Of a DNA stretch of 64,000 nucleotides, positions 6,125 to 37,638 are shown in pieces. The first letter of the stretch is position 1; every line of letters starts with the position of its first letter. The notes beneath the pieces were generated by a model. The model ran no database searches and had not been told where the DNA came from. It worked only from the letters and a program-made list of their open reading frames with translations. The DNA is from SAR202 cluster bacterium. Its GTDB lineage: Bacteria; Chloroflexota; Dehalococcoidia; Lucifugimonadales; UBA3495. The stretch lies in NCBI GenBank assembly GCA_013204585.1, contig JABMNL010000031.1, forward strand, positions 1 through 64,000, in the 5' to 3' direction. A program made the position numbers and the translations under genes.

Positions 6125-6242
6125 ATTGTCTAGGCACGTAGGGGAGCTCGGTTTAGCCGGGCTGAGAGGGAGACCGTAAATGTCACCGACCCTTGCGAAC
6201 CTGATCTGGGTAATGCCAGCGGAGGGAAACGGACTAGAGAGC
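6125..6242 (+). promoter_or_regulatory. TPP (THI) riboswitch 2
   Basis: Near-identical to riboswitch 1: 'cacgtaggggagctcggtttagccgggctgagaggga...acccttgcgaacctgatctgggtaatgccagcggagggaaacggactagagagc'. Confidence 0.95.
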
Positions 6243-6256
6243 TAACTATTGTGTTA

Positions 6257-32336: not shown

Positions 32337-33260
32337 TTACCCTGCGCCAGTCCTTAGTGCGCTGAACAAGTAGACGGTAGCAAATGTGCGATAGGGTGAC
32401 CAGCGCTGGGCGATGTCTTCCACCTGGACGTCGGTTACATCTTCGCCGTCAGTGAACAACCGGGAAACCACTCTCCGCAGGGCCAAGTCACCCAGAGGCA
32501 ATGCGTCTGGACGGCCAACCGCGCGAATTAATACCCACTGGGCGGTCCACAGTCCCACGCCGCGCAGTGCAACAAGTTTTTCCACGATCTGTTGGTCGGT
32601 CAGACTATCCAAGCCTTCAAGCCCCACGCCATTGTCCAGGGCAGACCCGGCCAAGCCGTGGACGTACTCGGACTTGCGCTGGGTCAGCTTCATGGTGTGC
32701 AGCTCGGCAGGGGATGACGCCCAAATAGACGCGGGCCTGGGGAAGGCGTAGTAGGTCACGCCGTCGAACTCCGCGCTGGGGCCGAAGGTTTCGATGAGCA
32801 GCGTCCGAATTATGCGGGCCACACTGGTCGATATCTGCTGGCCCAACACCGCCAATATCAACGCCTCGAACACCGTGGCTGTGTGGGGCAGGTGGAGACC
32901 GTAGAACTCGTCAATCAAGCCAGACATGGCCTTGTCCGCCCGGCCCAGTTCGTAGAAAGGAGCCAAATCTTGGTCAACGCCCAAGAGCCAAGACACCCTA
33001 GCCTTGACCTGCTCAACATCCTCGGGGCTCAATTCTTGGCCCTGCAATTCCAAGGATAGTTCGGGGGAGTCGATGGTACCGATGGACCGTACCGATGCTA
33101 AAACCAGTTTGCTGCCAAGGTCGAGCAGCCGCCGGTAAACGCCATCCTCCATGGTGTCGGTGCCGTAGCGACTTTGGAAGTAGGTGTGGTAACTGGCTGT
33201 AAGCTCGAAGTTGAAGGGCGGCACAGGCCGAATGGTCGCGGTCAATCGGTCCATGGCCAA
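32337..33260 (-). CDS. DNA-3-methyladenine glycosylase II / AlkA-like HhH-GPD protein
   Basis: 'ALILAVLGQQISTSVARIIRTLLIETFG', 'LVALRGVGLWTAQWVLIRAVGRPDALPLGDLALRR'. Confidence 0.88.
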   Translation of the reverse strand: MAMDRLTATIRPVPPFNFELTASYHTYFQSRYGTDTMEDGVYRRLLDLGSKLVLASVRSIGTIDSPELSLELQGQELSPEDVEQVKARVSWLLGVDQDLAPFYELGRADKAMSGLIDEFYGLHLPHTATVFEALILAVLGQQISTSVARIIRTLLIETFGPSAEFDGVTYYAFPRPASIWASSPAELHTMKLTQRKSEYVHGLAGSALDNGVGLEGLDSLTDQQIVEKLVALRGVGLWTAQWVLIRAVGRPDALPLGDLALRRVVSRLFTDGEDVTDVQVEDIAQRWSPYRTFATVYLFSALRTGAG

Positions 33261-33893
33261 TCACCCGCCGCCAATGGACGCAGAGCCTACTAGATAGTGC
33301 CGCGACCCGGCGGGGTCAAGCTCGGTGCGCATCAAGTTAACGGTGTCGGCAGTCCAGGATGGGGTACTAGGCAGCTTTCCTTCGGTAATGACCTGCCCAA
33401 TGTTACTCGACTGCACTTCCGACACTTCCCGCCTCACCCGGCCTAAAGTTAGATGGGGCGAGAATGCGCGCATTTCTTTCGGCAATCCCAGGTTCCCCAC
33501 CGCTTCATCAACGGCCAGTTGCAACGCAGCCAATGTCTCTAGGTCGCCTTGAACCCCCGCCCACAAAACCCGGGGACGCCGAGGGTTTGGAAACACGCCC
33601 AACCCGGCAATAGTAAGCCCAAAGGGGGAGAACTCGGCGGTCACTTCCAGCAGTGCCTCCAATACCCGATTCACCAGTTCGGCAGGGATGTCGCCCATGA
33701 ACTTGAGCGTCAAGTGCATGCCTTCAGGGCGCACCCAGCGCACGCATTTCCCAAATTCGGAGTCCAACACTTTCACTGTCTCTTCCAACACCGCTATTCC
33801 TTCTTGGGGCAGCGGAATTGCGATGAATGACCGAACCTTATTGTCGTCGGACGTCGTCATTGCTTGGCCGCCTCCCTCAACCGCCCATACCAC
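33261..33893 (-). CDS. thpR: RNA 2',3'-cyclic phosphodiesterase (2H family)
   Basis: Two H-x-T/S-x motifs: 'HLTLKFMGD' and 'HLTLGRVRR'. Confidence 0.9.
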   Translation of the reverse strand: MVWAVEGGGQAMTTSDDNKVRSFIAIPLPQEGIAVLEETVKVLDSEFGKCVRWVRPEGMHLTLKFMGDIPAELVNRVLEALLEVTAEFSPFGLTIAGLGVFPNPRRPRVLWAGVQGDLETLAALQLAVDEAVGNLGLPKEMRAFSPHLTLGRVRREVSEVQSSNIGQVITEGKLPSTPSWTADTVNLMRTELDPAGSRHYLVGSASIGGG

Positions 33894-34408
33894 TCGGCCA
33901 GGTCGTTCAACGAGTACTTGGCGTTGGCCGGACTGGGGTTGGGGACGACGAATATCTTAGACGTGCCAATAACCCGTTCTTGCATACCTAATCGAGGACT
34001 CTCTCTCACGCCCTCGCCGTGCTGAAGATAGGCTTTGTAGGCCATCAGTCCGTGGAAGCAGACCAACTTGGGAGCGAACCGAATAATCTTTTCTTTGAGC
34101 ACCGGTGCCCACTGGCGAAAGTCGGCGGCTCGCAGTCCCGAACCCATTGGCGTTGGCCGCTTGGCAACGTCGGTGAACCCAATGCCGTCGCTCAGCAGGG
34201 AGGCATCTTCTTGGGCGGTGACTTCCCGCGAGACCAGGCCCGACAGGTTGAAGGCTGGCCAGAACCGGTTACGTGGATTGGCAAAATAATGGCCGACTTC
34301 GGCGGAGTATTGGGAAGGGTTCAGCCCGACAAACAGCAAGTCCAGCCCGTCCCGCAGGTAATCGGGGAGGGTTACAAACTCATCTGATGACAAGTTGGCG
34401 ACGCTCAC
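33857..34408 (-). CDS. Mismatch-specific (G/U) DNA glycosylase, Mug-like UDG superfamily
   Basis: 'LLFVGLNPSQYSAEVGHYFANPRNRFWPAFNLSGL', 'VVPNPSPANAKYS'. Confidence 0.88.
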   Translation of the reverse strand: MSVANLSSDEFVTLPDYLRDGLDLLFVGLNPSQYSAEVGHYFANPRNRFWPAFNLSGLVSREVTAQEDASLLSDGIGFTDVAKRPTPMGSGLRAADFRQWAPVLKEKIIRFAPKLVCFHGLMAYKAYLQHGEGVRESPRLGMQERVIGTSKIFVVPNPSPANAKYSLNDLAEWYGRLREAAKQ

Positions 34409-35298
34409 AGATTCAAGAGTCGGGCGGCGTTTCCGGACAACAGTGCGGCTTCCACGTCGGGGGCAAGGCCAGCGCCGCGCACCTGCTGCAACGGCCGGGA
34501 GGCTTCCATCAATGGGTAGTCGCTGGCAAAGAGCACCTTACCCGCCCCGGCCAGTTCAGCCACAGCGGAAAAGACCTCGGGTCGGTAGAGGAAGGGAGAC
34601 GCCGCCGAGTCGAAGTACACGTTTTTCAGCACGTCCGGGACTTCGGGCATCAGGGAGTAGAAAGGCAGGCCGCCGCCCCAATGGGCGCAGATGATTACAT
34701 TGTCGGGGAAGTTTTGGATGAACCGGTAGAGCTTGTCGGGGGTGGCGCTCCCTTTACCGGGGTATTGGTGCCCGACTGGCTCCGACGCGTGAACCAGCAC
34801 CGGCAGGCCGTTAACGCGGGCTAGGTCCATGACCGGCGCCATGGTTCCGGCGTCCGTAATGTCGAACCCCTGGGTGTCGGCATGAAGCTCGCCAATGCCC
34901 ACCAGTCCCGCCGCCAAGCACCGTTTGGCTTCTGCCACTGCCGGTTCCCCCCAGGCGGGGTTCACCGAGCAGAACCCAGTCAGCCGGTCTGGGTGCTCAC
35001 CCACCGCCTGGATGATGTAGTCGTTGGCTTCGACGGCTGTCTCGTAGTCCGTCCAGCCCATGCCCATGACCACCGCCCAGTCCACACCGTCGCGGTCCAT
35101 GGCTTCTAGCAGGTCTTCGGCAGACGCAATGCGGGCATCCGGGCTAGCCAGCAGTTCGGAAAAGGTGGCATCACGCTGGGCAATCTCAGCCCGGCGGTCG
35201 CGAAAAGAGGGAGGGAGTATGTGACAGTGAGCGTCTATTACCAAGGCGTAATCTGTACAATCAAAGGCCGAATGAACATTAGGGAACGAGTATAGCAT
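34405..35298 (-). CDS. Amidohydrolase family protein
   Basis: 'VIDAHCHILPPSF', 'NVIICAHWGGGLPFY', 'VLFASDYPLM'; start chosen at MLYSF because the upstream ORF extension runs into a low-complexity repeat. Confidence 0.8.
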   Translation of the reverse strand: MLYSFPNVHSAFDCTDYALVIDAHCHILPPSFRDRRAEIAQRDATFSELLASPDARIASAEDLLEAMDRDGVDWAVVMGMGWTDYETAVEANDYIIQAVGEHPDRLTGFCSVNPAWGEPAVAEAKRCLAAGLVGIGELHADTQGFDITDAGTMAPVMDLARVNGLPVLVHASEPVGHQYPGKGSATPDKLYRFIQNFPDNVIICAHWGGGLPFYSLMPEVPDVLKNVYFDSAASPFLYRPEVFSAVAELAGAGKVLFASDYPLMEASRPLQQVRGAGLAPDVEAALLSGNAARLLNL

Positions 35299-35351
35299 CG
35301 GGTGGTTGGGAGCTGATTCAACGAACCAGGGAAACGCCCCATCTCCGACTC

Positions 35352-35383
35352 CGAACCCGACTCTGACTCTGACTCTGACTCCG
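35352..35383. repeat. Hexanucleotide-type low-complexity repeat (gactct/gactcc)n
   Basis: 'gactccgaacccgactctgactctgactctgactcc'. Confidence 0.8.
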
Positions 35384-35466
35384 TCGAACCTAACCTTCCC
35401 CCGGACGGGGGAAAGGATACCAAAGAATCTACCGCATGAAAATGACACTCTTATTATGATTAGAAT

Positions 35467-36024
35467 ATGAGCACTGACCCTACCGGCGAGCTATTCACGC
35501 TCAGGGGGCGTACTGCGCCCGACTTTACTCTGCCCAAACCCGAGGGCGAGTTTCTATCGCTTCAAGAATTACGAGGACGGAAGGTCTTGCTGGTCTTCTT
35601 GAGGCACTTCGCTTGAGTGCCTTGAAGAGAGCATCTGTCGCAGTTGCGACAGCAGTACGGCGAGATTCAGGCCAAGGGCGCGGATGTGGTCGCCATCTCC
35701 TTTGAACCTAAGGAGCGGCTTTTCCAACTAACCCGGCAGGCCCAACTGCCCTTTCCCATATTGTCGGACCCCGAGAGGGCCGTGTATGCCGCCTACGGTC
35801 TAACGGAAGGTCACTGGCTAAAGATTTTCTCGCTCAAGACAATCTGGACTTACGTGAAGCACTTTGCCAGGGGGCGACGCTACCATCACGCGGCCAGCGA
35901 CTGGAAGCAATTGGGTGGGGACTTTGTCTTGCAAGAAGACGGAATAGTTATCTACGAATACCGAGGGCAGGCGCCCCATGACCGACCAACCGTTAATCGC
36001 CTAATCGCCGAACTGGGCGGCTAG
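35467..36024 (+). CDS. Peroxiredoxin-like (AhpC/TSA family) selenoprotein with a UxxU redox motif; two in-frame UGA codons read as Sec (U50, U53)
   Basis: ATG 35467 is in frame with the tracked ORF 35644..36024; reading through TGA 35614-35616 and 35623-35625 gives MSTDPTGELFTLRGRTAPDFTLPKPEGEFLSLQELRGRKVLLVFLRHFAUVPUREHLSQLRQQYGEIQAKGADVVAISFEP..., matching the family pattern RHFxCPxCRExLxxL with both Cys replaced. Confidence 0.88.
35635..35652 (+). promoter_or_regulatory. Candidate bacterial SECIS hairpin (ctgtcgc-agtt-gcgacag)
   Basis: Perfect 7-bp stem; the apical loop starts 16 nt after the second UGA and 25 nt after the first; loop contains AGU. Confidence 0.75.
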
Positions 36025-36329
36025 TGGTCGCTGCCGTCTTCGCTGAACTCGTTCTCGTCGCTAAAGACACCGGTCTCGCGTCCCTGGAAGACGTGAACCA
36101 CAAAATTCTCACGGTTGATACCGACAGCATCGACGATATCTTCGTCCACGGTGTCGATGATTTCCTGGATGGTGTCCTGGGTCAAGCTCTCGTCAACCGA
36201 TATCGCCACGTGGACCATTTCCGCTGTGAAATGGATATCCACCCGGCCGACCTGCCGGTCCAACTCCATAATCATGTACGCTTCGGAAGAAGGTGTGCGC
36301 ACCTCGCGCTCAAAGCTCAGATCAGCCAA
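36021..36329 (-). CDS. Conserved hypothetical protein (102 aa, acidic)
   Basis: ORF with coding-like composition; stop overlaps the convergent peroxiredoxin stop (CTAG). Confidence 0.6.
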   Translation of the reverse strand: MADLSFEREVRTPSSEAYMIMELDRQVGRVDIHFTAEMVHVAISVDESLTQDTIQEIIDTVDEDIVDAVGINRENFVVHVFQGRETGVFSDENEFSEDGSDH

Positions 36330-36360: not shown

Positions 36361-37638
36361 TTACTGCCTGACTTGCCCCGTCCCCATTATGACCCATTTA
36401 TAAGTAGTTAGCTCTTTTAACCCCATCGGCCCACGAGCGTGAAACTTCTGGGTGCTGATGCCCACTTCCGCGCCGAGGCCAAATTGCCCACCGTCGGTGA
36501 ACTGGGTGCTGGCGTTGACATAGACTGCCGCGGCATCCACCTCGTCCAAAAACCTGGTCGCTGCCGCCTCATCCTCGGTGATAATCGCCTCGGAATGACC
36601 CGAGCCGTAGGTCTCGATGTGTTCCAAAGCGTCGTCCAATGAATCCACTACTTTCACTGCGGCGATGAGGGCCAGAAATTCCTTGCCCCAATCATCCTCG
36701 TTGGCCGGCACAGCAGTTCCAGAAGCGTCGGGCCCCAAAATGCTTAGCGCCCGAATGTCGCAGTGGAGTTCCACGCCTGAATCGGTCAGTCCCTTGGCGA
36801 TGAGGGGCAGTCCTTCCGCCGCAACGTCCGAGTGCACCAGAACAGTGTCGAGGGCATTGCAGATGGAAGGACGCCTGACTTTGGCATTGTGGACAATCTC
36901 CGCCGCCATCTGAAGGTTGGCCGCCCGGTCCACGTAGGTGTGGCAAACTCCGATGCCGCCGGTAACCGCCGGCATGGTGGCGTTCTCGGCCACAAATTTG
37001 ACCAGACCCGCGCCGCCCCTGGGCACCAGCAGGTCGATATAATCATTCATTCGGAGCATCGCATCAACCAATGCCCGGTCTGGGTTGTCCAAATACTGGA
37101 CGGCATCCTCGGTCACTCCAGCGTCCAACAAGGCCTTCCGGAGCAGCGTCACCAGCGCAGTATTGGAGCGAATGGTCTCCTTGCCGCCCCGCAAGATGCA
37201 GGCATTGCCCGACTTGAGGCAAAGACCAAAGATGTCCACAGTCACGTTGGGCCGGGACTCATAAATGCTGCCCACCACTCCCAGCGGCACGCGGCGGCGG
37301 GTGGTAATCAGCCCGTTGGGCATGGTGGCCGTCTCGATAACTTCGCCCACCGGGTCCGGCAATTCTGAGACCCGCTGAACCTCGTCGGCAGTGCCGTTCA
37401 GACGCTCCGAGGTTAGCAGCAGCCGGTCCAACATGGACTCGTCCATGCCATCGACTTTAGCTTCTTGGTAGTCCAGTTGGTTGGCCGCCAGCACGCCTGC
37501 TTGGTCCGACCGAAGCAACCCAGCCAGATTCAGCAGCACCTGGTTTTTGACCTCGGTCGACAACCGGGCTACCTCGCGGGACGCTTTACGGGCGGCTAGG
37601 CCCAGGGCGTGCAAGTCTTGTACTGTCTTGGTGATCAT
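36361..37638 (-). CDS. proA: Gamma-glutamyl phosphate reductase
   Basis: 'RRVPLGVVGSIYESRPNVTVDIFGLCLKSGNACILRGGKE', 'YVNASTQFTDGGQFGLGAEVGISTQK'. Confidence 0.97.
   Translation of the reverse strand: MITKTVQDLHALGLAARKASREVARLSTEVKNQVLLNLAGLLRSDQAGVLAANQLDYQEAKVDGMDESMLDRLLLTSERLNGTADEVQRVSELPDPVGEVIETATMPNGLITTRRRVPLGVVGSIYESRPNVTVDIFGLCLKSGNACILRGGKETIRSNTALVTLLRKALLDAGVTEDAVQYLDNPDRALVDAMLRMNDYIDLLVPRGGAGLVKFVAENATMPAVTGGIGVCHTYVDRAANLQMAAEIVHNAKVRRPSICNALDTVLVHSDVAAEGLPLIAKGLTDSGVELHCDIRALSILGPDASGTAVPANEDDWGKEFLALIAAVKVVDSLDDALEHIETYGSGHSEAIITEDEAAATRFLDEVDAAAVYVNASTQFTDGGQFGLGAEVGISTQKFHARGPMGLKELTTYKWVIMGTGQVRQ

Follow-up and report, generated by a model that had tools for sequence, protein, structure and literature searches.

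The gene described here lies in a window of 64,000 nucleotides, the whole stretch of DNA that was analysed, from a SAR202 cluster bacterium. Its features are collected in Table 1. On re-reading the window, one frame was found to run from the ATG at 35467 to a TAG at 36022-36024, in which TGA 35614-35616 and TGA 35623-35625 are the only in-frame stops; the start, the stop and both TGA positions had thus been given correctly in the earlier note. With the two TGAs read through, the product has 185 amino acids, with UVPU as residues 50-53 in the context ...RHFA-U-V-P-U-REHL.... The internal TTG start at 35644 that the note had found in its ORF track was reproduced by a standard ORF call. Standard annotation splits the gene and loses the active site, yet the locus encodes an intact peroxiredoxin-like protein.

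Table 1 Features of the locus and its neighbourhood, with positions in the window.
Feature	Position	Strand	Evidence and remarks
Amidohydrolase (PF04909), divergent neighbour, conserved	34405-35448	-	Synteny; true start probably downstream of the listed GTG
Selenoprotein gene, SelL-related redox protein, 185 aa plus TAG stop, two UGA codons	35467-36024	+	Pfam and NCBIfam matches, orthologues
UGA codon 1, Sec50, first UxxU position	35614-35616	+	TGA in 17 of the 18 loci compared; L041 has TCA (Ser), CxxC members have Cys
UGA codon 2, Sec53, second UxxU position	35623-35625	+	TGA in 16 of the 18 loci compared; L038 has TGC and L043 TGT, most phylum members of NF040769 have Cys
bSECIS hairpin CUGUCGC-AGUU-GCGACAG, 7 bp, 4-nt loop at 35642-35645, -10.5 kcal/mol	35635-35652	+	Codon freezing, covariation, absence in Cys homologues, energy
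Truncated ORF of standard gene calling, TTG start, without active site; false gene start	35644-36024	+	ORF calling; ATG 35467 conserved in same-genus orthologues
102-aa protein, no Pfam match, convergent neighbour, conserved	36021-36329	-	Placed with the UxxU gene on one side and proA on the other in relatives whose flanks extend that far
proA	36361-37638	-	Next after the 102-aa gene; synteny

The read-through protein matches the Pfam families AhpC-TSA (PF00578; 86.3 bits, 2e-24), Redoxin (2.7e-16) and AhpC-TSA_2 (PF13911; 60.2 bits, 3e-16). Its match to the NCBIfam model NF040769, 'SelL-related redox protein', reaches 159.4 bits where the curated cut-off is 120, and residues 16-182 cover profile positions 2-172 of 173. 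The earlier assignment to the PF13911 type needs one refinement: that model does match, but its alignment begins at residue 59, and the active site is covered by PF00578 and NF040769 instead. The placement of both UGAs on the cysteines of a CxxC motif is borne out by the relatives, in which both TGAs align with Cys. Members of NF040769 from the phylum carry UxxC, UxxU or CxxC at the active site; the window protein has Sec at both positions, whereas in most of the sampled members there is a single Sec (UxxC) or no Sec at all.

By profile, the protein is also related to thioredoxin-fold peroxiredoxins and to ResA-type oxidoreductases. Classical peroxiredoxins (PrxQ/BCP and the TxxU Prx selenoproteins) are among these relatives (2cx3, 5.1e-18), and in the alignments Sec53 falls on the conserved Cys of the PrxQ/BCP-type enzymes 2cx3 and 5enu. 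The active site of classical peroxiredoxins has the signature PxxxT/SxxC. RHFAUVPU has Arg in the place of Pro and Sec in the place of Thr/Ser, and the SxxU variant L041 regains the Ser alone; the UxPU arrangement of the window protein resembles thioredoxin-type CxxC sites. A further profile match, over nearly the full length (1.7e-9), is to a protein of the Prx-like2 group, to which PF13911 also belongs, the prostamide/PGF synthase (PDB 9us9), but this is an animal-type enzyme by name and its substrate specificity is not transferable to the window protein. AlphaFold2, run on a two-sequence alignment, gave a pLDDT of 35, and the model was set aside.

Orthologues were searched in 99 relatives and found within the same genus and family, which gave a comparison of 18 loci including the window. 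The active site is UxxU in 15 of them, UxxC in two (L038 and L043) and SxxU in one (L041). A same-genus UxxU orthologue, L036 of genome G002, is counted among the 15 although it is decaying, with one TAA stop and two that are TAG; the gene has been lost there recently. In a named collection a near relative, Casp-Chloro-G2 (SAR202 cluster bacterium), was found at 77% identity. When the gene was compared with seven intact orthologues of the same genus, pN lay far below pS in the parts before and after the TGAs alike. Where synonymous change is not saturated, dN/dS comes to about 0.03-0.13 in both parts, a rough figure, as saturation is close. This pattern of substitutions indicates that purifying selection acts both upstream and downstream of the TGAs. 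The gene order with the amidohydrolase, the 102-aa protein and proA is kept in most of the loci whose flanks reach that far.

Downstream of the second TGA, the codons CTG TCG CAG TTG CGA CAG (35635-35652) form a hairpin. It starts 9 nt after UGA 2, and its loop starts 25 nt after UGA 1 and 16 nt after UGA 2. In the 17 intact orthologous loci the S, Q and L codons at its centre are invariant and the R codon has changed once; the mean pairwise codon identity over S-Q-L-R is 0.97, compared with 0.49 at 34 other conserved degenerate positions. Across a broader set of NF040769 proteins of the phylum, the stem varies in sequence and the pairing is kept, as in GCTTTGC-AGTT-GCAAAGC (L064) and CTGGCGC-AGTT-GCGCCAG (L073). 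Across 34 Sec-type sequences, six of the seven pairs have changes on both sides, 90.3% of cells are paired versus 70.5% in shuffles, and the covariation score is 0.541 versus 0.180 +/- 0.026 in shuffles and at most 0.211 in slid controls. The pairing test is conservative, since in four UxxC sequences (L065, L069, L074, L075) the hairpin is shifted by one base, with 6 bp and a 5-nt loop, and was scored as partly unpaired. RNAalifold recovered the identical stem unprompted. The same columns in ten Cys-type homologues are 54.3% paired versus 50.3% when shuffled, and no hairpin above shuffles was found there. Because the single-sequence fold of 70 nt is only weakly significant (z -1.63), codon freezing and covariation carry the case for the hairpin, and from them we conclude that it is selected as RNA.

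The bSECIS model in PMC13188914 asks for a loop of 3-9 nt, a stem of 4-16 bp, a G in the first two loop positions, a distance of 16-37 nt from the UGA and an MFE of at most -7.5 kcal/mol. The hairpin falls within these limits for both UGAs, with its AGUU loop, 7 bp, G at loop position 2, distances of 25 and 16 nt and -10.5 kcal/mol. Only 6 nt separate the two UGAs, and there is no room between them for a separate hairpin serving UGA 1.

The source genome is a draft (3.13 Mb, 76 contigs, 92% complete, 4.3% contamination) and has the components for selenocysteine insertion, as four genes on separate contigs. The search for selA, selB, selC and selD that the earlier note had proposed yielded tRNA-Sec (66.4 bits; called SeC(tca) by ARAGORN), selA (570.9 bits), selB (261.8 bits; SelB-specific beta-barrel and winged-helix domains, N terminus cut by the contig end) and selD (371 bits), the last with an in-frame TGA of its own at the usual site, in the motif AGUASK. 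Nearly all of the 99 relatives have tRNA-Sec, so its presence or absence has no discriminating power among them. Genome G006 has two tRNA-Sec genes (C87:82055 and C33:755; 66.4 and 64.5 bits), for which its 7% contamination could account.

Taken together, it is beyond reasonable doubt that 35467-36024 is a selenoprotein gene. The sel components, the covarying bSECIS, the Cys-aligned TGAs and the NF040769 score above cut-off all speak for the Prx-like, SelL-type UxxU selenoprotein claimed at the outset. We hold with high confidence that the product is a cytosolic, thioredoxin-fold, Prx-like SelL-related selenoprotein in which both UGAs are read as Sec by means of one bSECIS, and that the gene is vertically inherited. 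SelB, bound to the single hairpin, would deliver Sec-tRNA-Sec to both UGAs; the hairpin lies in the permitted window of each and would serve both insertions. Truncated products may also be made, depending on the efficiency of insertion at each UGA. The two selenols would sit at a thioredoxin-type active site and cycle between diselenol and diselenide, with a Sec50-Sec53 diselenide, which the motif permits, as the oxidised state. Since it is the first Sec that most one-Sec members have retained, Sec50 is the likely attacking nucleophile, and Sec53 would be its partner. The selenols would reduce peroxides or disulfides; the diselenide and the enzymatic role of the window protein are put forward here on the grounds of sequence.

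Among the alternatives, the one that survives best, though we consider it improbable, is that one UGA is decoded efficiently as Sec and the other mostly terminates or is misread, giving as main products a truncated peptide and, in minor amount, the full-length protein. The action of a bacterial SECIS is sensitive to its distance from the UGA, and the distances to the loop are unequal here by 9 nt; most Sec forms in the phylum sample also have a single Sec (18 UxxC and one SxxU among 35 Sec rows). UGA 2 is nevertheless retained in 16 of the 18 orthologous loci, and the sequence past it is under strong purifying selection. Moreover, L041 has UGA 2 only and the UxxC members have UGA 1 only, each over the same hairpin, so that each spacing seems to work alone: the UxxC members suggest this for UGA 1 and the SxxU member for UGA 2.

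A reading of UGA as Cys or Trp through an altered code or a suppressor tRNA, with no selenium involved, is far less probable still. UGA is reassigned in some bacteria, but tRNA-Sec, SelA, SelB and SelD are all present here, both sites align with Cys or Ser and never with Trp, and the covarying SECIS would be left without a role. In the window, TGA ends eight of the 40 long non-overlapping ORFs, in agreement with the earlier view that it is a genuine stop elsewhere, and TGG encodes Trp 242 times; TGA as Trp was rejected on these counts and on the presence of the sel machinery. The least probable reading, a pseudogene or sequencing errors, has a real counterpart in the decaying L036, but it is excluded, together with chance, by the recurrence of both TGAs in 15 of the 18 loci from separate assemblies (the exceptions having TGC, TGT or TCA at one site, which bears out the doubt about sequencing error voiced before), by dN/dS well under 1 on either side of the TGAs and by a window copy without any other stop or frameshift.

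Two observations elsewhere in the window may be recorded. The ORFs 33261-33893 and 32337-33260, both on the minus strand, are consecutive, in the same frame and parted by one TGA; read-through would fuse them, but they look like two genes, and the TGA between them is most likely a normal stop. Two TPP riboswitches (Rfam RF00059) at 1822-1937 and 6130-6245 on the plus strand fit the thiamine-related genes named in the earlier note.

Proteins of this kind are already known. UxxU Prx-like selenoproteins were reported from marine bacteria by the GOS survey (PMC2398784) and bacterial ones are catalogued in reviews of 2022 and 2026 (PMC9312934, PMC13188914), in agreement with the statement that UxxU is known from the SelL/Prx-like family. 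The window protein matches the Prx-like thiol:disulfide oxidoreductases listed in the two reviews (PF00578; UxxC, UxxU) in domain and motif, the two-Sec form included. SelL (SELENOL, animal/aquatic) is described as a diselenide protein of fish, invertebrates and marine bacteria (PMC2397514) with two Sec and one SECIS (PMC3541580); its diselenide formation was reported by Shchedrina et al. 2007, as cited in both. The window gene shares with it the Prx-like nature, a UxxU motif built from two Sec, and a single SECIS in the gene (PMC3541580), a likeness drawn through family models, with the diselenide of the window protein a presumed one. It differs in being decoded in the bacterial manner by an in-frame hairpin, whereas animal SelL uses a SECIS in the 3'-UTR. 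The window gene is thus a further SelL-related member, from SAR202-type Chloroflexota. A search of PMC9312934 and PMC13188914 yielded no Chloroflexi, and one of PMC13188914 no SAR202; in the passages found, neither review gave lineage or SECIS detail for the clade, and none of the papers searched names both SAR202 and selenoprotein. The present locus adds a SAR202-type Chloroflexota clade with a well-supported two-Sec gene, evidence for one covarying bSECIS placed within range of either UGA, and a set of close relatives in which UxxC, UxxU and SxxU forms all occur.

This series over one hairpin suggests that no additional SECIS came with the second UGA when it was gained. At least four changes of the UxxU label are required on a 45-row tree, whose root decides whether they count as gains or losses. 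UxxU occurs in two separate groups, the family of the window and L068/L082, and one UxxC and the SxxU form are nested in the group of the window. On balance we favour, with some reservation, a history in which one hairpin decodes two UGAs 9 nt apart, the second having arisen from a Cys codon within range of a pre-existing hairpin; UxxC would have turned into UxxU more than once, and UxxC and SxxU forms would have arisen later. If this is true, the natural series would allow direct tests of the range of spacings that SelB tolerates and of the advantage that a diselenide brings. Double-Sec redox sites are rare; UxxU, UxxC and SxxU versions in close relatives over the same SECIS offer a ready comparison of what a diselenide can do and a selenenylsulfide cannot.

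Further likely selenoprotein genes were seen outside the window in its own genome, G000. Three tandem Prx-like genes (L010-L012; contig C40:23031-24706, minus strand) have lipoprotein-like N termini and one in-frame TGA each, in the UxxC motifs FWUTTC, FWUTVC and LYUVFC, and adjoin an MBL-fold-like hydrolase; they are a selenoprotein gene cluster. On contig C30 there are another Prx with a TAGU motif of the TxxU type (L014; 176748-177059, plus strand) and a Sec-containing selD (L025; 39290-40210). The source genome is likely to have at least six selenoprotein genes, that of the window included.
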